Assembly (NCBI RefSeq): GCF_901000735.1
Contig: NC_081543.1
Coordinates: forward strand, 15,279,574 to 15,343,573
Length of the DNA: 64,000 nucleotides
Reading direction: 5' to 3'
From: Corylus avellana
Lineage: Eukaryota > Streptophyta > Magnoliopsida > Fagales > Betulaceae
Shown: in pieces, positions 3,157 through 56,656 of the stretch
Layout of the letters: each line of letters starts with the position of its first letter
How positions within the stretch are numbered: position 1 is the first letter of the stretch
Position numbers and translations under genes: made by a program
The notes under the pieces: model-generated
The model's input: the letters and a program-made list of their open reading frames with translations, nothing else
The model's database searches: none
What the model was told of the DNA's origin: nothing

Positions 3157-3164
3157 GATAGTAT
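3157..3164. repeat. Target site duplication of the hAT-type element (left copy)
   Basis: GATAGTAT here is repeated exactly at 4318-4325 on the other side of the element. Eight bases is the usual hAT duplication length. Confidence 0.9.
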
Positions 3165-3499
3165 TAGGCCTGGGTATCGGTCAAAACGGTCTGGTTAAGG
3201 ACCTTATCGGTTATTAACTGATAATTTTCGGTTAAACGGTTTAGTAACCAATACTGAACCAATAAGAATTTTAACCGATAATTTCAGTTAAAACAGTACA
3301 CGGTTAAACGGTTCTGTTAAACCGGTTAACCGATTTAACCGAGAGCTTTATATTAATTTATTGTGTTGGGCCAAAAATCGAAAATGAGTTTTTTTGACTT
3401 TTGAGAGCCCAAATACTTTTTGTTGGGCTAAAATAACTTATTAAAAATGAGTTGTTTTAGGGTCCAAATACTTTTTTTTGGGACCCAAATATTTGTTAC

Positions 3500-3767
3500 C
3501 TAATTAGATTCTTGGAAGTAAGACGAGGAGCTTTGATTGCAGCACCGATCAAACTGCTTCCGGTTATGTAAATACCCCTAACAAGTCCACGTAATTACAG
3601 ATAAGTTTTCAGATACCCCTAGAAGATGAAAGGTACCAGGCGGCGCCGAGGACGGAGACGCCTATGGCAACGGCGATTCTGATAGCGGAGAAGGTGTAGG
3701 GCGAGATCTGGACCAGCGCGTGGGCCCACGAGCTCGCTTCTCTAGCTATTATTGCTGAGCCTGACAT
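3500..3767 (-). pseudogene. VHA-c'': Captured V-ATPase subunit c'' gene fragment, exons 1 and 2
   Basis: Minus-strand exon 1 (3767-3637) starts ATG and encodes 43 residues including ISPYTFSAI and AIGVSVLGAA. It ends after two bases of a Trp codon at a GT donor. After a 59-bp intron (3636-3578, GT...AG), exon 2 (3577-3500) restores the Trp and encodes GIYITGSSLIGAAIKAPRLT then SKNLI, ending at another GT donor. In the known family this is the N-terminus and first membrane helices of the proteolipid c'' subunit of the vacuolar proton pump (full length about 180 residues). Only about 70 residues are present; the rest of the gene is missing and transposon sequence follows. Reading frame and splice signals are intact; one Gly of the family motif is Arg (SAIRIA). 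Confidence 0.9.
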
Positions 3768-4130
3768 GGTTCGATCTGTTGGTGATTGCTCTCAGATTTG
3801 AAGGTTTTCGTACTGATTGATATGTGAGAAAGAGAGAGAGAAAGAGTTTAGAGATTTGTGAAATCTGAAATCGGATTACTGAATCGTATTGTTCTTCTGT
3901 TTCACAGTCACGGGGGAGGAAAAAAGGAAAAATAAAAGAAAATACAAGGCTCTGAATCTGCTGAGCCGCGAGAGACCGAGAGAGCAGAGAGGCTGCGTGA
4001 GATTTGCTAATTTTAGACTAAAGTGGAGTGGGGCTTACTGGCTTAGGGTTCGACTGTTGTGGGAATTTGGAAACCTCTCTAAAAGACTAAAACGACGCCG
4101 TTTTGGGACTAGGACTAATAAGTAATATCT
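3768..4130 (-). promoter_or_regulatory. Probable captured 5' UTR and promoter of the c'' gene
   Basis: Sequence directly upstream of the captured ATG is unlike the CGGTTAA-rich transposon ends. It has a CT-rich leader (a CTCTTTCTCTCTCTC tract near 3830) and, further up, AAAACGGCGTCGTTTT, a motif common in promoters of plant housekeeping genes. That it is the original promoter is inferred from contiguity with exon 1. Confidence 0.5.
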
Positions 4131-4317
4131 GGTTTCTTATCGGTTAAATCGGTTAATCGATAAGAACCCCTTAACCGGACCGAACCGGACCGGACCGAAT
4201 TCCGGTATACTTTTTTTAACCGATAAGGATATCGGCATATCGGCTACGGTTTATATCGGTTCGGTCGAAGCCGGTAGATGGCCGGTTAAACGGTAATGGT
4301 TAATTTGCCCACCCCTA

Positions 4318-4325
4318 GATAGTAT
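4318..4325. repeat. Target site duplication of the hAT-type element (right copy)
   Basis: GATAGTAT, identical to 3157-3164. The interrupted LTR resumes here with AGTACAAC. Confidence 0.9.
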
Positions 4326-6317: not shown

Positions 6318-6677
6318 CTCTCTTTAGGATCGGGTTCCCCTCCAATTGAGGGGATAATTTGAGATTTTCCAATTGTCCATCTGGGACGTTCAATTTGATC
6401 CAACACTCTACAGAATGCCACGTGTCATACTATAATTAAATAATAAAATATTATTTAATTTTTAAAAAGACAATAAAAGTAAAATAATAAAAAAATTTAT
6501 TTTTTATTATTTTTATTTTTATTTTCTTTTTTAAAATTAAATAATACCTTATTATTTAATTATAGTATGACACGTGGCATTCTGTAGAGTGTTGGATCAA
6601 ATTGAACGGTTTAGATGGACAATTGAAGAATCTCCAATTAACCCCTTAATGGAAGGGGATCCGGATCCCTCTCTTTC
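6318..6677. mobile_element. MITE with ~140-bp inverted arms (Mutator-like)
   Basis: The body (6327-6668, 342 bp) is a near-perfect inverted repeat. Both arms contain CAATTGTCCATCT, TTCAATTTGATCCAACACTC and TACAGAATGCCACGTGTCAT, in opposite orientation around an AT-rich centre. Flanks are CTCTCTTTA (6318-6326) and CTCTCTTTC (6669-6677), a 9-bp duplication with one mismatch. Long inverted arms plus a 9-bp duplication point to a Mutator-like non-autonomous element. No coding region. Confidence 0.85.
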
Positions 6678-10740: not shown

Positions 10741-10941
10741 GGCAAGGTCAACCCAAACTAGTTCGATTTGTGCTCAGATAGAAACACGTAAAAGACAGTC
10801 AAAAAGGGATATGGATGGGGATCTCTCAGGAGAGAAGAGAGGGAGGAAAAGTGGGTTGAGTAGGGAAGAGAAGAGTTGTTTCAAAAAAAATTTTAATGGT
10901 TTGGGATTGGCGGGTGTTGCACCATAGCATCGCCGACCACA

Positions 10942-11736
10942 ATAACCACCCTCAACTGGAACTGCCGAGGGCTTAGGAACCCGCGGACAGTTTGTGAACT
11001 TTGTCGGTTGTGCAAAGTCAAGAGATCTAACCTGGTTTTCCTTATGGAAACCAAGGTACGACAAAAAGAGATCGAGAAAATAAGAAGCAAGGTGGGATTT
11101 CAAAATTGCTTTGTTGTGGATTGTGTGGGACGAAGTGGAGGTTTAGCATTGCTATGGAAGGAGGACTTGGATCTTGAAATCCAAAACTATAGTCGTAAAC
11201 ATATTAACGCTATAGTTACTCCGAAGAGGGGAGGGGAGAGTTGGAAATTGATGGGGTTTTATGGGAACCCGGAACCTCATAAGAGACATGAAACATGGGC
11301 ACTTTTGCGCCATTTAGCTGGTCTTGATCCTAAGTCGTGGGTCTGCTTCGGGGATTTTAATGAGATCACGGATAAAGCTGAAAAAAGGGGTGGGAATGAG
11401 CAGTCTTTGGGTTAGATGGATGCTTTTCGAAATACCCTTTCTTTTTGTGAGCTATCAGATCTCAAGTGTAATGGGTCGTGTTTTACATGGAATAATGGGC
11501 AAGAAGGGAATTCTTTTATCCAAGCCAGACTGGATAGGGTGATAGCGAATGTTGAATGGTGCGCAATTCACCCAGACGTGATTATTTCGAGTGAAGTTTT
11601 ACTCAATTCGGACCATATGCCGCTATTGTTTACTTATAACAACTTCGGCCAGGGTGGGAGGAGGATGAAACTATTCAGGTATGAGGCTCATTGGGCGAAG
11701 GAAAAAGGGTCAAAGGATGTGGTTAGGCAAGTCTAG
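10942..11736 (+). pseudogene. LINE endonuclease domain
   Basis: The frame shows the order expected for an exonuclease-endonuclease-phosphatase fold: LNWNCRGLRNP, METK, SGGLALLWKEDL, CFGDFNEI, LDRV and SDHMPLLF. These hold the residues that bind metal and cut target DNA in this family (N, E, D/N, SDH). An amber codon at 11413 splits the frame and another ends it at 11734. Confidence 0.9.
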
Positions 11737-11892
11737 AAGAAGAAATTCAATCATAAGGACAGGTGAAGAAATATGAAGGGGGAACTTGATAGTTGCTCAA
11801 AGGGACTATTACGGTGGAGAAAGAAGGAGCTGGGGGGAGCAGAAAAAGAGTTGAGTTATAAAACGCAGCAATTAAAAGAGCTTTAGCGTGGG

Positions 11893-13303
11893 ATGGGGGA
11901 CTCGAAGAGAAGAAAAATATTGGGCCTCCAAAAAGAGTTGCAGACACTTTTGGAAAAAGAAGAAATAAAGTGGAAACAAAAATCAAAGGAGGCATGGCTC
12001 AAGGAGGAAGATAAAAATACTAAATACTTCCACACATGTGCAACCCAAAGAAATCAAAGAAATTCCATTGACAGTATTATTGACGAGCAGAGGCAGTCTT
12101 GGGAGTCAAAAGTGGACGTGGTGCAAGTGTTTGTTAATTATTACCAAACTTTATTTACATCAGAGGCCCAAACCGAACCAAACCTCTGGTTGGAAGAGCT
12201 TGAGTGCCATGTGTCCTCCGAGATGAATGAAGGTTTGATGAGGGACTTTTCTGTAGAGGAGGTAATTACAGCTTTGAAACAAATGTCACCCCACAAAGCC
12301 CCGAGACTCGATGGTTTCTCTATGGGTTTTTTTCCTGACAATTGGGAGGTGGTGGGTGAGGAGGTATGTCAATCTGTACTAGCAATTTTAAATTCTGGTA
12401 TAATTGAAAGGGAGCTCAATTTTACTTATATAGCACTTATACCTAAGACTCCTAATCCTAAAAGGGTGACGGAGTTCAGACCTATAAGTCTGTGTAATGT
12501 TTTTTTATAAGATTATCTCCAAAGTCCTTGCTAATAGAATTAAGGTGATTTTGCCTAACCGGATTTCTATGAACCAAAGTGCCTTTATACCGGGAAGGTT
12601 GATCACTTATAATATTTTGGCCGTCTAAGAGACATTGAATTCTATGCATACTCGTATGTGGGGTAAGGAGGGGTATATGGCTATCAAATTGGACATGAGC
12701 AAGGCAAATGATAGGGTGGAGTGGGACTTCCTGGAGGCTATTATGAGAAGAATGGGTTTCAATGAGAGGTGGGTTAATCTCATCATGATGTGTGTTTGTT
12801 CAGCCAACTATGCCCTCTTGGTGAATGGTAATCCTGTGGGCCATATTTACCCTTCACGGGGCTTAAGGCAAGGAGGCTCCATCTTACCTTATTTGCTCTT
12901 ACTATGTGCGGAGCATTGAGCTCTCTCCTTGTCAAGGCGGGGCAAAATGGGTATATTGAATGGGGTGCCTACTTCAAAAAGGGGCCCTAAGATCAATCAC
13001 CTATTTTTTGCAAATGACAGTTTACTATTTTGCAAGGCTGATTTGGAGCATTGGAACCGGATAACAAAAGTTTTGGGTACTTATGAATGTGCTTTAGGAC
13101 AACGGTTGAACAAAGAAAAAAATGCTATCTTTTTTAGCAGGAATACTGAGATCGAGGTCAAGAAAAAAAATTTAGAAGTGGCAGGAATTCTAGATTCGCA
13201 GCGGTTTAATACGTACTTAGGGCTCCCGGCTTTAGTTGGAAAATCCAAAATGGCGGAATTCCAAAGCATCAAGACCCGGGTGTGGAAGAGGTTGCAAGAC
13301 TAA
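11893..13303 (+). pseudogene. LINE reverse transcriptase domain
   Basis: Motifs in order are [88 protein letters not shown] and FFANDSLLF. Two changes affect key sites: the usual FADDS box is FANDS, with one catalytic Asp replaced by Asn, and KAYDRVEW is KANDRVEW. A T7 run near 12500 shifts the frame by one base, followed by stops at 12626 and 12917. The copy cannot make an active enzyme. Confidence 0.9.
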
Positions 13304-13306
13304 GAA

Positions 13307-14256
13307 TTGAATTTCCTTTCTCAAACTAAAAAAGAGATATTGATAATGGCGGAAGTTCAAGCGATCCCTATGTATAGCATGAGTGTCTTCCCTCTACCAA
13401 AGGCTTTATGCAATGATATTAATTCTTTGATGAAGAGATTTTGGTGGGGGAATCAATCAAATGAGAAACACATACATTGGATGACTTGGGAGAAGCTAGG
13501 AGTGGCAAAATCACAAGGTTGTATGGGATTTAGGGATCTCATCATTTTCAACCAAGCTCTCTTAGCAAAACAATGTTGGAAGTTAGGGACCTCGCAGGAC
13601 AGTTTGACGGCACGGATTCTAAAAGCAAAATACCATCCAAATTGCACCATTTTGGAGGCACAAATGGGGCCCAAACCTTCTTTCGCTTGGCGGAGTATTC
13701 AAGGGGCCTGCAAAGTAGTTAGTGATGGGTTGATTTGGCGGGTTGGGGATGGATCAAATGTCTGGATTTGGGGTGACAAATGGCTTCACAACCCATCCAC
13801 CTATATGGTCAAATCTCCTCCAAAGGTTTTGAATGCAGAAGCAAAAGTGAAAGAGTTAATTGACCATGAGGGGCAGGGGTGGAAATTAACATTGTTAAGA
13901 GAAATTTTCACCCTGGAGGACCAAGTGGCTATTCAATTGGTTCCATTCAGTTGCCTCAATCAGCCGGACAAGCTGGTGTGGAGAGGGACTCAAAATGACG
14001 TGTTCTCGGTGAGTAGTGCATGCCACATGTTGAAAGAGCAGGACATCGGCCAACAACCTGAGAGTTCTAGTAGAAGGGGGCACAACGTTTTATTGAAGGG
14101 AATTTGGAACATACACTCTCCAAATGCAGTTAAAAATTTCACATGAAGAGCTTGTAAAAACCTCTTTCTGACGAAGGATCACTTACTGAGGAGAAGGGTA
14201 GTTGAGGATCCCATATGTCCCATTTGTAGCTTGGAGGCCGAAACTACTTTTCATGC
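13307..14256 (+). pseudogene. LINE C-terminal region after RT
   Basis: This continues the RT frame with MAEVQAIPMYSMSVFPLP, INSLMKRFWWG, WEKLGVAKSQGCMGFRDL, AKYHPN, WRVGDGSNVWIWGDKWL and, after a stop at 14144, VVEDPICPICSLEAETTFH. This is the standard extension and zf-RVT start of plant LINE proteins. The sequence ends abruptly at the LTR beginning at 14257. Confidence 0.88.
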
Positions 14257-16474: not shown

Positions 16475-17648
16475 GCTGTTGATGTTCACAATTATCTACC
16501 TAAATTAATTGGCAAATAACTGGATGTTTTATCCGCAAGTGCACAAGGTCAACATAGTAGTATAGTGTGCAAATATTGGGTCATTCCCACGAGGATTGTT
16601 GAATCTTGTCTTAAAATCAATTCACAAAGTAAAATAAAACAACAGATTGGATTTAAATTAATAATGATAAAAAGATAGGGCTTTGATATCCACCATTAAT
16701 TATATTAAGCTAATATATCAATAAGCCAATGTTTTGATCAAGTTATGTTTATCTAATGTTTGTCAACCTAAGGGTATAGGTGTATACTTTTGGTTCCCCA
16801 TGTTGATTAATCCAAGAACCCGGTGTGGATTACTTTTGTTACTTATGTTAAACCCAGGACTCGATCATCTAAATTGATTTAACTAACTAGTCCATATCAC
16901 ATGCACATGTTGATTAGGCACACACATATGAGGAATTCATAAAACTAGGTATTAATCAAGTTGGATCTCATAACAAGATCATCACAAAGGCGCCAATATT
17001 GAATATTAACAAAACATAACTAGGGCTTCAATCTGACCCCACTAATTAAATTAGTTACACATAAAGTTGATGTTAAACATCTTTATAAAATTAAAGAAAA
17101 GAAAGGAAAAGAATAAACCCGAAACTTAAACTTAAAGAGCTCCTATTATTCTCGTTACAAGCATACCAATTCTAGAGGCTTAAGGGTCTATTTATAGGTT
17201 TTAGAAGTCCTTGACAAACTAGTAAACCCAGAAATTTCGTAGGATTTCAAAACCTATTACAATTGGGTGTTGGAAAACCCTATTATGGAAATATTAGAAT
17301 TCTAGCCGCAGCTTTGATGTCTCTCTTGTGCACGGGTGCGATCGATCTCAACTTGTGTGCGCTCGATCGTAGGTCTACGATCAAGCCTCTTCTATTGTGT
17401 CCTCGTGGCTTGCTTCATGCTTTGTCTTCTCTGGTACTGCGCTCGATCGCAGTGTCAGGGGCTCCCATTTTTCCCATCTTCTCACTTTGAGCCCAAATCT
17501 TCCAGCTTTACTTCATTTTCTTTGAAAAGCCTGCAAAAGTATGGCAAGCACAAAAAGGAATTGAAATTGCCTAATTAACTAAAATCAAAGGATTAAAACA
17601 TGTAAGTTAAGGGCTGAAAATATAAATATTTTAGCACGTAACAGCTGT
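16475..17648. mobile_element. Solo LTR of family A with target duplication
   Basis: The LTR body is 16480-17643 (1,164 bp), from TGATGTTCACAATTATC to ATTTTAGCACGTAACA. It is flanked by GCTGT at 16475-16479 and 17644-17648, a perfect 5-bp duplication. No internal sequence or second LTR is present, so it is a product of LTR-LTR recombination. The flanks read as one continuous LTR of the surrounding Tat-lineage element. It contains GCGATCGATC and GCGCTCGATCGCAG motifs near 17338-17456. Confidence 0.88.
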
Positions 17649-23313: not shown

Positions 23314-24486
23314 CTACACCCAATCCCGGAAGTAGTCTTCCTTGTTTTTATCTTCTTTTTGCCCCGGATGTCTCGTGTTATCTATTGCTTCCAGAACATC
23401 AGCCTCATTGATGAACTCTTGTACCTTGCTCATCAATTCTTGTAGATTGCTCGGTGGTTTTCGTGCCATTTTCCTCATCACCGGTTCTTTGGTCAAGAGC
23501 CCATGATAAATTGCCGAGTATATTAGGTCATCTGAGGGTTCTTCAATTTCTGTCTTCTCTAGGTTGAATCGAGTTATGAATTGCTTCAAAGTTTCATCAT
23601 TGCGCTGCTTCAGAGTCAGCAAATAGGATGGTGGTTTCTTCCGGATCCGTGAAGTCATAAACTGAGTTAAGAATACCCGACCTAGATCTTCAAATTTGTC
23701 GACTGAGCCCGGGGGCAGCTTCCTGAACCAGTTCCGGGCACTTCCTGATAAAGTGAGGGGGAAGGCCCTGCAAGCCACCTCATCTGGGATATCAAGGAGG
23801 CGCACATGTGACCGAAAATCTTCCAAGTGTTCGACTGGATCTCCAACCTCATTATAACTCATCATAGGAGGAGCCTTGAATTTTTCAGGCAATCGGTATT
23901 CCTCCACACGTGGGGAAAAAGGTGAACCGGTTCCCTGCAATATCTTCTCCACGAAGGTGTCCTTCCTTCTATTCTTCCGCTCCATCTCCAGGTTAGTGAA
24001 CCTCTTGTCAAATTCTGCCATCCTTCGGTTGAGCTCGTCATCTCTATCTTGGGTACCACTGATTTTGCTATCATTCACCCGACTTTCCTCCTTTCGGCTT
24101 GCATGCTGCTTGAACTTGTCTTCTTGGTGTCCTCGTCTTGGCTGATTATGAGTGCTAACACGGCTGTTGTACTCTTCTTCGTCCTGCCTACCACGGGTTT
24201 CCTTGCGATGAGACAGCTTTGATACTCGTAGACGAAGTTCTGCATTTTGCCGTGTCAGGGTTTCGATTTGCGCTGCCATTGCTGCAAAGCGTTCAGGATC
24301 TCTCATTTCCGGTTGACGGGGAGGTATGTTGTGTTGAATTGGTCCTTGCTGAACTATGGGATCAACAGAGTTAATACTGATAACTGGATCTATCGAGTCA
24401 GTCTGGCTGGCGTGGTTGACCGGTTTCGGATTAGGCTGGACCAATGGACCAACATGGTTGGCTATTTCCGTTCGCGTGGCCACCAT
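23314..24486 (-). CDS. gag: Gag protein of the gag-only LTR element
   Basis: Intact 390-codon frame from ATG at 24486. The N-terminal third is polar, with a short coiled coil (MAAQIETLTRQNAELRLRVS) and an Arg/Glu-rich region. The retrotransposon gag core follows at about residues 195-330: HLEDFRSHVRLLD, ACRAFPLTLSGSARNWFRKL, FLTQFMTSR and FITRFNLEKTEIE. In the family this protein forms the virus-like particle that packages element RNA. The frame ends (EDYFRDWV) without a CCHC zinc knuckle and without pol. Similar gag proteins belong to Tat-like Ty3/gypsy elements. The lack of stops and the identical LTRs suggest it may still be expressed. Confidence 0.9.
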   Translation of the reverse strand: MVATRTEIANHVGPLVQPNPKPVNHASQTDSIDPVISINSVDPIVQQGPIQHNIPPRQPEMRDPERFAAMAAQIETLTRQNAELRLRVSKLSHRKETRGRQDEEEYNSRVSTHNQPRRGHQEDKFKQHASRKEESRVNDSKISGTQDRDDELNRRMAEFDKRFTNLEMERKNRRKDTFVEKILQGTGSPFSPRVEEYRLPEKFKAPPMMSYNEVGDPVEHLEDFRSHVRLLDIPDEVACRAFPLTLSGSARNWFRKLPPGSVDKFEDLGRVFLTQFMTSRIRKKPPSYLLTLKQRNDETLKQFITRFNLEKTEIEEPSDDLIYSAIYHGLLTKEPVMRKMARKPPSNLQELMSKVQEFINEADVLEAIDNTRHPGQKEDKNKEDYFRDWV

Positions 24487-24599
24487 GGCAAAATTTTTTC
24501 TTCCTTTTTGCTTTTCTTTTTTATCCGGGATAGAGTATCCCCAAAATGTAATAATTTGGAATAAGAATTACCTTATTCTCACAACCAACAAAAACCAAT

Positions 24600-29564: not shown

Positions 29565-30938
29565 TTAGTAACCAACCAAATAATCCAGTTTTCGAAGCAC
29601 CTTTTTTAATGGATACTCAGTTAATACTTTGATTGTATGAGCTTGAAAATACGGCCAAAGCTTTCTAGATGCAATTGTTAACGCAAAGGCGAGCTTCTCC
29701 ATTTGCACATGTCTTTCCTCAGTTCCACGTAATGCCCAGCTCATGAAATATACTAGCTTCTGCATTCCTTCTTCTCGGATTAGAGCTACATTAATCACAG
29801 TTGGAAATACGGCTAGATACAAATATAATGTTTCTCGGCTCAACAAAGGTGGGCTGATCAAATACGTCTTCAACTGCTCAAACACTTGCTCACACTCTTC
29901 ATACCACTCAAATGCATTTCTTAAAATCTGAAAGAATGGAAGACATTTATCAGTAGATCGAGAGCTGAACGCGTTTAACGCTGTAATCCTTCCTGTTAAT
30001 TGTTGAAGTTGCTTTGTATTTCTCAGGGACTGCATATCTAGAACTGCTTGAATCTTCTCAGGATTAGCTTCAATCCCTTGGTTTGAAATCATATAACCGA
30101 GGAATTTCCCTGATGAAATTCCAAAAGCACACTTGGCAGGGTTGAGCTTCATCTTATACCGCATCAATGTTTTGAACGCCTCCTGTAGATCTTTTACATG
30201 GTCTGTACGCAGTATACTCTTGACAAGCATATCATCCACATAGACTTCCATATTTTTTCCGATCTGCTCTCGGAACATCTTGTTCACCAACCTTTGATAA
30301 GTAGCACCAACATTTTTTAGACCGGAAGGCATAACTTTGTAGCAATATAAGCCTCGATCAGTAATAAATGTTGTCTTCTCTTGATCAGATGGGCTCATGA
30401 AGATCTAGTTGTAACCAGAAAATGCATCCATAAAACTGAGCAGCTCATACCCAGTTGTTGAATCAATCAGTGCACTAATATATGGCAATGGAAGGTTATC
30501 CTTTGGACATGCCTTATTAAGATCAGTAAAGTCTACAGACATCCTCCACTTCCCATTAGACTTTTTTACCTACACTACATTGGCCAACCACTCAAGATAA
30601 TAAACTTCCTCATTAAACCGAGCTTAGAGCAGCTTCTCTACTTTCTCGACGATAGCCATATTTCTTTCAGAAGCAAATTTTCTTCTCTTTTGTTTTACTG
30701 GTTTCATCCCCGGATTCACATTCAACTGATGAACAATATCTTTCAGATCAATCGCAGGCATATCTTCATGAGACCATGCAAAAACTTCTAAATTCTTTCG
30801 AAGAAACTGAACAACAATCTCCTAAACTTTTGAAGTTAACTGGGACCCTATCTTCACAACTTTTCCTTCTGCTATCAACTTATCAATCAACTGCTTCGCT
30901 GGTTCTCTTTTCAGATGACCCTTCTTTTCATTGCACAC
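29565..30938 (-). pseudogene. Reverse transcriptase of the Tat-lineage element
   Basis: In order on the minus strand: [52 protein letters not shown], a stop, TFITDRGLYCYKVMPSGLKN, VEVYVDDMLVKS-type box (MEVYVDDMLVKS), LNPAKCAFGISSGKFLGYMI and the connection to RNase H. The YVDD box is intact. Nonsense codons lie in AFSGYN-stop-I (about 30411), before KKSNGKW and further upstream. The frame is truncated at 30938 by a family A LTR, so gag and protease are missing. Confidence 0.9.
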
Positions 30939-31633
30939 TGTTGTCATAATTACCTACTAAATTAATAGGTAAATAATTGGATATTTTACCCGCAAGTGCA
31001 CGAGGTCAACACAGTAGTATAGTGTGCAAATAAAGGGTCATTCCCACGAGCATTGCTGAATTTTGTGTAAAATAAATTCCCAAGGTAAACTAAAATAAAA
31101 GATTGGATTTGAGTTTATAATGATAAAAAGGTAGGACTTTGATATCCGTCACCAATTATGTTTAGCTAATATGTCAATATGCCAATGTTTTGATCATGTT
31201 ATGTCTATTTAATGTTTGTCAACTTAAAGGCATGAGTATATACTCCTTAAGTTATAGATTTTCCTAAGCAACGAATTAGGCATGGGTGTATACTCTAACT
31301 CTTTTTTTTCCTAAAGGATGTAGCATGGTGTATACTAAGTTGTTCTTTAGGAAAGCATATATTCTGTGGAAATCGACAAACACATGAGACCTAAAGCATG
31401 GGTGTATAGTCCCGATTCCTCATGTTGATTAACCCAAGAATCCGGTGTGGATTACTTTTGTTACCTATGTTAAACCCAGGACTCGATCATCCAAATTGAT
31501 TTAACTAATTAGTCCATACCACATGCACATGTTGATCAGGCACACACATTTGAGGAATTCATGAAAACATGAATTAATCAATTTAGATATCACAACAAGA
31601 TCATCACAAAAACGCCAATATTGAATATCAACT
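30939..31633. mobile_element. LTR fragment of family A
   Basis: Starts near TGTTGTCATAATTACC and shares with 16480-17643 the blocks CCCGCAAGTGCACGAGGTCA, AGTATAGTGTGCAAAT, GGGTCATTCCCACGAG and TTTGATATCC. It interrupts the Tat pol region and is cut by the gap at 31634. Confidence 0.8.
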
Positions 31634-43399: not shown

Positions 43400-45215
43400 A
43401 GATAGTATAACTACTTTCTATCAATCTTCGCTCAGAATAGTAGATTTTGTACCCTCTACATAAACCTGTAGCGCTGTAGCCCTTCGAATAAGCTTTCCAA
43501 CGGTTTTTGAACGAACCAAATCGGAGTTACATCGAGCTAGAACGAGCAAAATTACTAAAACCCTCTTGAATCGGCCGGTTCAAGTGAACCGGGCGGTTTT
43601 CTGGTGCTGGACAGGTTCTGATTCGGGTTGAATCCTGGACCGGTTATCGGGTATGGGCGGTTTGGCGGGTCGGACAATTTAATTGCCGGTTGTTTTTCAA
43701 CGAACCGGGCTTTTGCAGGTCGGGCTCCATTTTGGGCCGGAGCGGAAGGGCTAACGGGTTGGGCTGCACTGATGGATCGTTATGGTGGGCGTGCTCCAGG
43801 AGGCGTGGAGCGGGTCGGTTGACCCGATCCAAGACCGAAACGGCATAAAGGTTAAAAAACCAAAAGAAACGACCAATGCGGTGGTTCGAACCGGTGTGTT
43901 CTTCCTCGCCACTCTCTTGCGCAAAGCCTCAACCATTAGGCCATGCGCTTCTTAAGTTGCACGTTAACCAAAAAAAAATATTAAACCGTGTTTGAAATTT
44001 GTTTCCACCATTGTCTTCTTCCTCTGAATGTCCTTTTTTCTTCTCCGATTCTTTCTCTACCCAAACCGGTGCCTTCTGGGTCTGTTAGGGATTTTTCTCG
44101 AAAAATCTCTTCCTGCAGTCCGTCTTCTTTACTCATCGTAATCACGGAGACTCCCTTGAAGAAACTCAACCTCTTCACGGGTTGTAGCAAAAAGGAATCA
44201 ACTAAGAACAAAGCCCCATTCGAAAGTACCAGAACCTTCCCAATCTCAGCAAGCACGAGTATCCGATGAAAACAATCTGATGTATGCAAATTTGCAAGAT
44301 AAAATCTGGAACATTTTATATATTGGAAGAGAAAGTATTTCGCAGTAGCGCCGATTAGGCAAAAGAGCAAAATCCGAGAATACAATGCCTTCCTTTTCTC
44401 AATTTTCTCCCATTCTTTTCTCAATATTTTTTACTTTCCTTTCCTAGAGAAGGGAGAAAAAGAAAGAAAGAAAACAAAGATTTGGGAGATCCGATGGCTT
44501 CACTCCTGTCTTGGCACGAGATCCGGGCCAAGCACAGAGGAATCGTATTCTTGTTCTGGATTCAATATTCTCTAACTTCGCCGAGATTGAAAGTTTGTGT
44601 GTAGAATTTGTTGGTGCAAATGGCATCGAAGGAGAGATTTCTGACTAATGAAGTGTTGAAGATAGCGAGCCAAAATGTGGAGATTTTGTCATCGTCCCCA
44701 AAATCCCCGACATCTTTGCTTTCTGAACATGAGAAACATTAATTTCTATCCCTGGTTTCCAAAACATGTACATGTTTACAGATCGCCTGAATTCATCAAC
44801 CGTTTTGCATTCTCTCGATCTTTCCTCTCCATTTCCTTCCACACAATATCTTCCTTTTCCCAAACCGGTGCCTTCTCCAGTTCTCCTTCGCAGAAACTTA
44901 ACCCCGCAGAATCTTAACCATTAGACCAGACGCATCTAATGTTTGATTTTAACCAAATCAAATCTTAAACTGTGATTGAATCTGTTTGCACAGATTACTT
45001 GCGATGACATCCATTGATTTTAACCGAATCAAATCATAAAACCATATTCAAATCTGTTCGAATCTGTTTCTTATCACAGATTAGTTGCGTGTATATGCAT
45101 CGAACAGAGTATATATATACATATAATTGCAATTTGAAGATATAAACTTCAAATAACTCAATTCACGTTCATAAGAAGAACCAACGGATGAAGCAATTTC
45201 AAATTCTCTTGATCT
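43400..45215 (-). other. Leader region of the copia-derived element, unknown origin
   Basis: GC content rises (43.5-43.9 kb holds several CCGGTT blocks and GGTTCGAACCGG). An open minus-strand frame of 147 codons (44424-43981) has no recognisable domain. Two diverged copies of a block with CAAACCGGTGCCTTCTC-like and AACCATTAGRCC sequence occur (44.0/44.85 and 43.93/44.92 kb). It could be acquired host sequence; I cannot identify it. Confidence 0.4.
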
Positions 45216-53156: not shown

Positions 53157-54152
53157 TCAACACATTTCATCATCAGATTCATATTCAGAATCTGTATCAC
53201 TGTTACTTGAAGATGATTGTTCGTGTTCAGAGTCTATATCGTTGTCGCTACATAACTCCTCTTCTTCATCAAAGTTTGTATCATGGTCCTCATTCGGCAA
53301 GTTATCGTTGGCAAACATGCTTGCATCAAGTTGAATATATAATTCATCAATTGCTATTGCCGCATCATCTCTACGTAATTGAGTGGAGGCTTCAACATTT
53401 GCTTCATCAACAAAGACCATATTACCCCCAACACATTCACCTTCCTGGTATACGTCATCACTGAGTCTTTGGTCATCTTCTGTATTATCTCCCTTCTGTA
53501 CTGTTGGAATATCATAGATGTCTCTATTGATCCACTTCTGCACCACTTTCCAATTACCACCCAATTTGGGATCATCCAAGTAAAACACTTGCAAAGCTTG
53601 ACATGCTAAGATGAACGGGTCAGATTCACACCATTTACGAGATGTATTCACAATCGTGAAGCCTTGGTCCATTCGTACTCCTATTGCACTCCCAGTGTCC
53701 CACCAATCGCACTCAAACAAGTACACGAGATTTTGGCTAGGGTAACGTAACTCTAAAATATTTTTTAACTCACCATAATACTCTGTTATTGAGGTTTCGT
53801 CCTCACCTGAAATAGAAATACCACTGTTCTGGGTAGTACGAGTTTCTGCACATTCTTTCGTGTTGTACCTAACCCCATTCACGATGCAACCTCTATACGA
53901 TCTAACATGACGATCAGGCCCGCATGCAAGATCGTATAATTGTTTTGAGCCATTGTTTGCAGTACGCCCACTATTGTATAAACGTTTATGGAACCAACGT
54001 TCAAAGTTAGCCTCATGCTTTTTTTCAATGTCACGGCCACCTTCTCTTTTGATCATATTATAATGTTCACTGCATGAAAAATAAATGTATTGGTAAATGA
54101 TCATCAACGCTAAAATTATAACAGGTCGTAACAGGTAAAACACAAAGACCAT
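53157..54152 (-). pseudogene. CACTA TNP2 C-terminal part with DUF4216
   Basis: The frame reads KHEANFERWFHKRLYNSG, CIVNGVRYNTKECAETRTTQ, NSGISISGEDETSITEYYGE, LVYLFECDWWDTGSAIGVRM and FILACQALQVFYLDDPKLGG, a DUF4216 domain (about residues 110-215). It ends in a very acidic Ser/Glu/Asp tail (EHEQSSSSNSDTDSEYESDD). The first 30 residues are an unspliced intron: an acceptor CATGCAG lies before TGAACATTATAATATG near 54071. It belongs to the same protein as the next entry. Confidence 0.85.
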
Positions 54153-54343
54153 TACTAAACTTACTCCAAATATAAGGCTGTTTCGTTACAGTTGGTAAGC
54201 ACATACCATCGTGCCCTACCAAAATCATTAGCATCCAGTGTTACTAATTTAGCTGCTCCTAACGGCCGAACTCATTGGGAGAACACATCCAAGCGCTAGC
54301 TCATTTCTACAATATCAACATCAACATTTCTCTGTTCACGGTT

Positions 54344-56656
54344 TCATCTTCTCTCAATCCCCCGAAGATACCTGGAACAGAAGGTCAAGCTCTCCTCAGC
54401 TAGGTAACACTCGGCAATAGACCCCTCTGGACGCGCTTTGTTACGCGTCCACTTCTTATATCTTCCAAGTTCTCTTTCGAACGGATACATCCAACGGTTT
54501 TGTACAGGATCGGCAAGCTCGGCCTCCCGAGGTAAATGAAGTGCTAGATGGATCATAACATCAAAAAAAGTTGGCGGAAATAGTTTTTCCATTTTGCATA
54601 AAATTATTACAATGTCGATTTTCATTTGTTTTAGGATATCAACTTTCAACGTCCGTGCACATAACTGCGTAAAAAAGGTACTGAACTCGGTCAATGTTGT
54701 TCGTATTTCCGACGTAGAGAAATTTTGAATTGCAACAGGAAGCAAGCGCTGTAAGAAGACATGACAATCGTGGCTTTTCATACCCGAAATTTTACCAGGA
54801 AGCTTGTTCACACATCGACCAATGTTAGATGCATACCCGTCAGGAAATTTAACACCTTTCAACCACTCACATAAACTCTTCTTCTCATCTCTTGTCAAGG
54901 TGTACTTCGCAAGTGGCATCCTATAAGTTTCACCATTTGGCTGCACATGCAATTCTTTACGTATACCCATCAACTGTAAATCTCTTCGTGCCTTGACTGT
55001 GTCCTTGGTCTTCCCATCAATATTCATCAACATACCTAAGATACTTTCACATATGTTCTTCTCAATATGCATTACATCTAAATTGTGACGTAGTTTCAAG
55101 CTTGACCAGTAAGGCAACTCAAAGAAAATACTTCTCTTCTTCCAATTCAACACAACATCTGTGTACTTTCTCTTTCTCCCGCTTGTTTTTCCAAATTGTA
55201 AACCCTCAGCATCCCTTAGTTGTTTCAACAATTGACTTGCAAACAATTCTTCAGGTTCCAATCTATGCTCCTCTGTACCATCGAACAAATCTCCTCTTTT
55301 GCGCCATGGATGCTCTTGAGGAAGCCACCGATAATGACACATGAAGCACTCCATTTGTAGACCACCCTGATAATTTTTCATATGCGGGAAAATCATTTAT
55401 AGTCCATAGTAATGTCGCATGCAATTGAAATGTCTCTCTCTTTGATGCATCGTACACGCGTATGCCTTCATTCCATAAATCTTTCAAGTCATCAACCAAT
55501 AGCCTCAAATATACATCAATATTCTTTCCAGGATCTGAAGGCCCAGGGCTAATAAGGGACAACATCAAATTTGGACTCTTCACACAGATCCACGGAGGGA
55601 GATTGTATACCGTTAACATTATTGCTTATATGCTATATATTGTACTCATATTACCATATGGGTTGAAACCATCACTTGCTAAACCAAGCCGCACGTTGCG
55701 GGAATCTGCAAACCACTCAATTCTTTCATCAAACTCTTTCCATACAATAGAATTGGCGGTGTGTCTGAGAGTATTGCCATCATCTTCTCGACCTTCTTTG
55801 TGCCACCGCATTTCCTTGGCCATTTCTTTTGTCATAAACAACTGTTGTAATCTCAATTTTATTGGGAAATACCGTAAGACCTTTTGAGGAATATTACTTT
55901 TTCTGCCTTTGCCATCAATCCATCTTGAATTGTTGCACTTTGGGCATACCACTTTGTCTGCATGTTCTTTCCAAAAAAGCACACAACCATTCTTGCATGC
56001 GTGTATCTTATCGTAACCGAATCCCAAGTGTCGCCTAAACTGTATTGCTTCTCTATACGAGCGTGGCAATGTCTCTCCATCTGGGAGGGCCGTCTTTATC
56101 AAGTCAATCATCATATCAAACGCCTTGTTACTCATGTTGCAGAACGCCTTTATATGAAGCATCTTCAGTACAAAAGCAATTTGTGTAAATTTCTTGCAGC
56201 CTGGATAAAGTTCTCGTAAACCATCTTCCCATAATCGGTAGAAGGAGCTTGTTTGTTCGTGATCATCAATTGTGGGGCCCTGTGAAGTAGAGGATTCTCC
56301 GATGTTAGCATCAACAAATGTCCCCATACATACATCGTCTAACAATTCTTCAACTGCATCAACCTCCTCCATCATTTCACTTGTATGTGTGTGCATTGTT
56401 GTAGAAGTGTTTACCCTAAAATGATCTTCTTCCCCGTGAAATATCCATGAGTGTATGTCGGAGTAAATCCATTCATATACAAGTGACCCTTCACCTCGCT
56501 AATATGACAATAATATCGATTTGCACAATCACGGCATGGACACTTTGTCATATCACGTGAATCAACTGATTTAACTGCCATTCCCATGAATTCTTCCACA
56601 CCTTTTTGAAATCGCTCTGAACATCGAGTACTTTCCCGCATCCAACTCCTATCCAT
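54344..56656 (-). pseudogene. CACTA transposase TNP2, N-terminal and catalytic parts
   Basis: From ATG at 56656: Transposase-associated domain (MDRSWMRESTRCSERFQKGV, CPCRDCANRYY); TNP2 region (SNKAFDMMIDLIKTALPDGE, LGFGYDKIHACKNGCVLFWK, CPKCNNSRW, RLGLASDGFNPYGNMS, LPPWICVKSPNLMLSLISPG, WTINDFPAYEKLSGWST, NLDVMHIEKNICESILGML); and DUF4218 (FPPTFFDVMIHLALHLPREA, QNRWMYPFERELGRYKKW). Lesions: a one-base shift near 56449, an in-frame TAA near 55627, and a frameshift with deletion of the Cys-rich segment near 55370. The family cuts and pastes CACTA elements. Both CACTA genes face left. Confidence 0.9.

Follow-up and report, generated by a model that had tools for sequence, protein, structure and literature searches.

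Gene fragments, some of them intron-bearing, were described in 2 Ds2 and 9 Ds-l4 elements of maize, in a 2011 study whose cited passages call gene capture rare among hAT elements (PMC3260210). The Ds-l4 elements, which belong to the Ac/Ds family, are most commonly about 1 kb long and contain filler DNA; 438 of 486 carry at least 3 copies of AAACGG, the hexamer bound by the Ac transposase, and 180 of the 486 adjoin repeats (same passages of PMC3260210). Grapevine Hatvine-6 was reported in 2008 to contain exon and intron sequence (PMC2528002, in part), 208 hAT cases were counted in 2021 among animal Pack-TIRs, 370 in all (PMC8277862, in part), and Pack-hAT elements were annotated in maize and rice in 2022, in a report whose cited passages give no new Pack superfamily for Arabidopsis (PMC8903248). 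The first-pass annotation of the locus described below had stated that gene capture is less often described for hAT elements. This agrees with the rarity mentioned in the passages of PMC3260210, yet published cases date back to 2008.

The locus lies in a 64-kb window, which is the whole stretch of Corylus avellana DNA that was analysed, and consists of a hAT-type element enclosing part of a VHA-c'' gene (Table 1). As far as the cited passages of PMC3260210 describe them, maize Ds-l4 elements resemble it by their 8-bp duplication, their modal length, the AAACGG hexamers near their ends, their filler DNA with gene fragments and, for 180 of 486, their position beside repeats, while host, terminal sequence and captured gene differ. 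The Ds-l elements assayed in that paper all failed to respond to Ac. With the Pack-hAT elements of maize and rice, the locus shares hAT terminal repeats, an 8-bp duplication and captured host coding DNA; unlike them, as they come from whole-genome annotation, it is one copy known from a 64-kb window (passages of PMC8903248). Hatvine-6 is likewise of the hAT family, with a variable part often matching host exons and introns, but its members share transposase coding sequence, whereas no ORF in the present element reaches 130 aa (passages of PMC2528002). Pack-hAT-N8_XT of the western clawed frog is also a hAT element, with captured 5' untranslated gene sequence; it differs by its animal host and its presence on three chromosomes, and coding exons are unmentioned in the passages of PMC8277862 that describe it. 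A search of the open-access literature found no paper on Pack-TYPE elements in Betulaceae and none on a V-ATPase fragment in a hAT element; papers of either kind may exist elsewhere.

Table 1. Coordinates, in the window, of the element, its parts and the related repeat copies that lack it
Feature	Position	Strand	Remarks
hAT-type element	3165-4317		1153 bp
Target-site duplication, left copy GATAGTAT	3157-3164	.	single target, alike at 6/8 positions, in related empty copies
Target-site duplication, right copy GATAGTAT	4318-4325	.
Left terminal repeat TAGGCCTGGG	3165-3174	+
Right terminal repeat	4308-4317	-	reads TAGGGGTGGG on the minus strand
Left subterminal region	3165-3355	.	CGGTTA-rich, 3 AAACGG; right edge approximate
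Filler between left subterminal region and exon 2	3356-3490	.	28-nt direct repeat, 3400-3427 and 3455-3482
Captured VHA-c'' exon 2	3577-3500	-	78 nt; followed by intron-2 donor GTAA, 3499-3496
Captured VHA-c'' intron 1	3636-3578	-	59 nt, GT...AG
Captured VHA-c'' exon 1	3767-3637	-	131 nt; ATG 3767-3765
Stretch upstream of ATG, presumed 5' leader and promoter	3768-4130	-	363 bp; assigned from position only
Right subterminal region	4131-4317	.	CGGTTA-rich, includes terminal repeat; left edge approximate
Related empty site (repeat copy without element)	16489-16622	+	76% identity to joined flanks, 136 aligned columns
Related empty site (repeat copy without element)	30938-31625	+	76.6% identity to joined flanks, 725 aligned columns

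Borders of the element and insertion into a dispersed repeat

The element is flanked on both sides by a perfect 8-bp duplication, GATAGTAT, the length of a hAT target-site duplication. Its termini, TAGGCCTGGG and TAGGGGTGGG, match each other at 8 of 10 positions and form short inverted repeats of the TAGGNNTG type, which is the consensus type of hAT terminal inverted repeats. The 11-bp terminus of Ac/Ds is not matched letter for letter. Mutator elements make duplications of 9-11 bp and have long terminal repeats, and the element shows neither trait. Assignment to a different superfamily whose members end in inverted repeats, such as that of the Mutator-like Pack elements, would fit the frequent gene capture noted for Mutator-like elements in PMC2528002 (cited passage); we give it almost no credit, as the 8-bp duplication and the AAACGG-type repeats near the termini agree with hAT and Ac/Ds in the cited passages.

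These repeats are present at both ends. CGGTTA occurs 7 times in the left 196 bp (3165-3360) and 5 times in the right 187 bp, with a single occurrence in the 780 bp between, and AAACGG is found 3 times in the left end and once in the right one, a fifth copy at 4098 lying outside both. They represent putative binding sites for a transposase. Counted per 200 bp, CGGTT/AACCG peaks at 10 in one end and 8 in the other, against a maximum of 4 in 200 simulations. Elsewhere in the window, a second dense patch at 43451-43700 has 7 per 200 bp near 43501, so that the simulations, with their maximum of 4, understate the natural clustering of the motif; the terminus scan described below listed no TAGG-type termini at this patch.

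The chance expectation for the borders was estimated by scanning for termini of 10 bp with at most 2 mismatches, 100-6000 bp apart and flanked by a perfect 8-bp duplication, in the window and in 200 first-order Markov simulations of it. With TAGG-type termini, a restriction chosen post hoc on an element already known, the window contained 1 such structure and the 200 simulated windows 0. When any terminus was allowed, 7.99 chance structures were expected per simulated window, and AT repeats dominated among the matches listed. A duplication with a loose terminal match therefore proves little by itself. TAGGSSTGGG was found, allowing one mismatch, at 7 places in the window, two of which are the element's own ends, for 5.1 expected by chance; GATAGTAT was matched 5 times, a number also reached by 7 of 100 shuffles. 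When the element was compared by blastn to the 64-kb window, no second copy was detected, the only matches being its own internal repeats.

Insertion is decided by empty sites, the statistics alone being no proof. The flanking sequences were joined, leaving out the element and one copy of the duplication, and aligned to the rest of the window. Two related copies of a dispersed repeat, at loci other than the element's own and about 76% identical to the joined flanks, run through the junction without the element (Table 1), and the alignment of the copy at 16489 can be extended to 334 columns at 71% identity. Where the element would be, both carry a single target, AGTAGTAT, which shares 6 of its 8 positions with GATAGTAT. 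The element is thus inserted into a dispersed repeat. Taken over 16489-17063 and 30938-31633, these two copies of the repeat are 85-88% alike over two matched pieces.

Could the termini and duplication nevertheless be fortuitous, the locus being a decayed VHA-c'' pseudogene left by a segmental duplication? The shortness and imperfection of the terminal repeats, the unremarkable number of GATAGTAT matches and the yield of the any-terminus scan go in that direction. Chance termini are ruled out, however, by the related empty sites, which share exactly the borders of the element, together with the TAGG-type structure absent from all simulated windows, and CGGTTA is clustered at both ends and scarce between them; we find the pseudogene reading hardly credible. 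A full VHA-c'' gene running past the termini had been set beforehand as decisive against the element; none does so, since both flanks belong to a dispersed repeat that has empty copies, and a full gene at the locus was ruled out on the same ground. The first-pass proposal of a hAT-type element with an 8-bp duplication is thus borne out by the duplication, the termini, the motif-dense ends and the empty sites.

The surroundings are repeat-rich, with retrotransposon coding remnants and the remnant of a tnp2-type (CACTA) transposon. The latter is a transposase gene remnant at 53157-56498 (Transposase_21, DUF4218, DUF4216). A gag-like ORF at 23314-24564 matched 11 proteins at E<=1e-60 among 1842 candidates, the three best being from Corylus avellana (88-92% identity over 49-56% of the query), which by itself would place the host probably within or close to Betulaceae. 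LINE-like remnants occupy 10897-14146, with an endonuclease/phosphatase domain at 10897-11412 and two adjacent ORFs resembling pieces of reverse transcriptase, each matching 0 Pfam families. What looks like a hairpin-type MITE is found at 6327-6668, a 342-bp near-perfect palindrome with an AT-rich middle, which shares 87% identity with its reverse complement and whose DNA fold has a z-score of -27.4 (0 of 100 shuffles as good). Finally, three 135-bp units form a tandem array at 548-937.

The VHA-c'' cargo and its decay

Between its termini, as in Pack-TYPE elements, the element holds host gene sequence. The coding piece lies on the minus strand, a point absent from the first-pass annotation, which had placed two exons of the VHA-c'' N-terminus here with an intron of 59 bp; both statements held. 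Translation of the two exons gives 69 residues that match plant V-ATPase c'' chains of solved structure (7uw9_c, E 5.9e-29; 9 distinct sequences at E<=0.001) and Pfam family PF00137 (E 4e-8). Among plant c'' proteins, 184 of 200 candidates matched at E<=0.001, and the best of the matches listed was Juglans protein P0001, with 87% identity over 100% of the query. The full-length coding sequence is not present, as the cargo stops after exon 2, upstream of the FCE segment of P0001. The glutamate of this segment carries the ion in c''. From its position, the stretch at 3768-4130 is presumed to have come along with the gene as leader and promoter, and the filler at 3356-3490 may include intron-2 sequence.

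Intron 1 has been shortened. It is the same intron as that read through by P0132, an ORF on JGI contigs, but has lost 26 nt at one place and 1 nt at another; it measures 59 nt in the element and 86 nt in P0132, the latter length being deduced by degenerate back-translation of protein letters and not from DNA. Over the 44 exon-1 residues, P0132 and the element disagree at 5, and P0132 may not be the donor of the cargo. In viral and bacterial contig collections, 89 and 361 stretches respectively matched its pattern, none of which was confirmed. For a more distant ORF, P0030, the intron read through comes to 81 nt (counted from protein letters), and 59 nt was rejected as the native length in view of the 81 and 86 nt of these two ORFs. 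The first-pass statement that splice signals are intact stands for the GT and AG ends; it does not stand for the intron itself, 27 nt shorter than that of the close relative. Plant introns below about 70 nt reportedly splice poorly, an observation attributed to Goodall and Filipowicz (1990), and splicing of intron 1, which is below this minimum, is therefore doubtful.

The coding sequence has also changed at conserved positions, as judged by pattern matches around each column among 200 fetched proteins, 11 of which are unrelated gag proteins. Residue 30 is Arg in the cargo, where 148 of the 149 matched proteins have Gly and the remaining one Ser; residue 63 is Leu, where 145 of 146 have Ile and the remaining one Val. 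Translation would stop at residue 70 were intron 1 spliced and intron 2 retained, and after residue 52 were intron 1 retained. Neither product would reach the FCE segment known from the full-length protein. A different protein end could result if the intron-2 donor were spliced onto some other sequence.

These data bear on whether the cargo is functional. As a mobile promoter expressed together with a truncated c'' peptide, the element might interfere with the V-ATPase or, after insertion, feed exons into host transcripts. Such a role is one possible reading, and preservation of the start codon, the two-exon reading frame and the GT...AG ends speaks for it, as does the hydrophobic stretch of the 70-residue peptide (19-residue mean up to 1.93). 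We regard it as improbable: intron 1 has fallen from an inferred 86 nt to below the minimum of roughly 70 nt reported for plants, its retention stops the frame early, Gly30 is replaced by Arg at a near-invariant position and the element sits within a repeat. Still less probable is a transcribed mobile cassette that would spread the promoter of a housekeeping V-ATPase gene along with that gene's first exons and provide a new start for nearby genes, the 59-nt intron still being spliced. The working promoter and truncated membrane peptide suggested by the first-pass annotation are thus unsupported, given the shortened intron and the changed glycine, and the cargo is most likely inert.

Origin of the element and its significance

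Taken as a whole, the locus is very probably a non-autonomous Pack-hAT with a genomic piece of VHA-c'', inserted into a dispersed repeat and with its cargo decaying. The captured piece would run from the upstream stretch through exon 1, intron 1 and exon 2 into the start of intron 2. Since an intron is kept in the cargo, we infer that capture took place from genomic DNA and not from mRNA; the same argument was used for maize Ds2-22 (passage of PMC3260210). The route was probably either break repair, whose errors were suggested as a source of capture in PMC3260210, or the joint mobilisation of two neighbouring elements, a route given in PMC8903248 (both in the cited passages). As the element contains no stop-to-stop ORF of at least 130 aa, a hAT transposase supplied from elsewhere would have been needed, and would have moved it in trans into the dispersed repeat. 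A non-exhaustive look through the window revealed neither a VHA-c'' donor gene nor a hAT transposase. The cargo would now be decaying, most likely without yielding a useful protein.

Gene capture by hAT elements being already known from maize Ds-l4, Hatvine-6 and Pack-hAT (cited passages), the VHA-c'' case, though clean, is an ordinary one. It adds a clean hAT capture in a plant other than the maize, rice and grapevine of the cited papers, with related empty sites in the same window. Such captures are useful for counting and dating capture events, the overall picture being unchanged.
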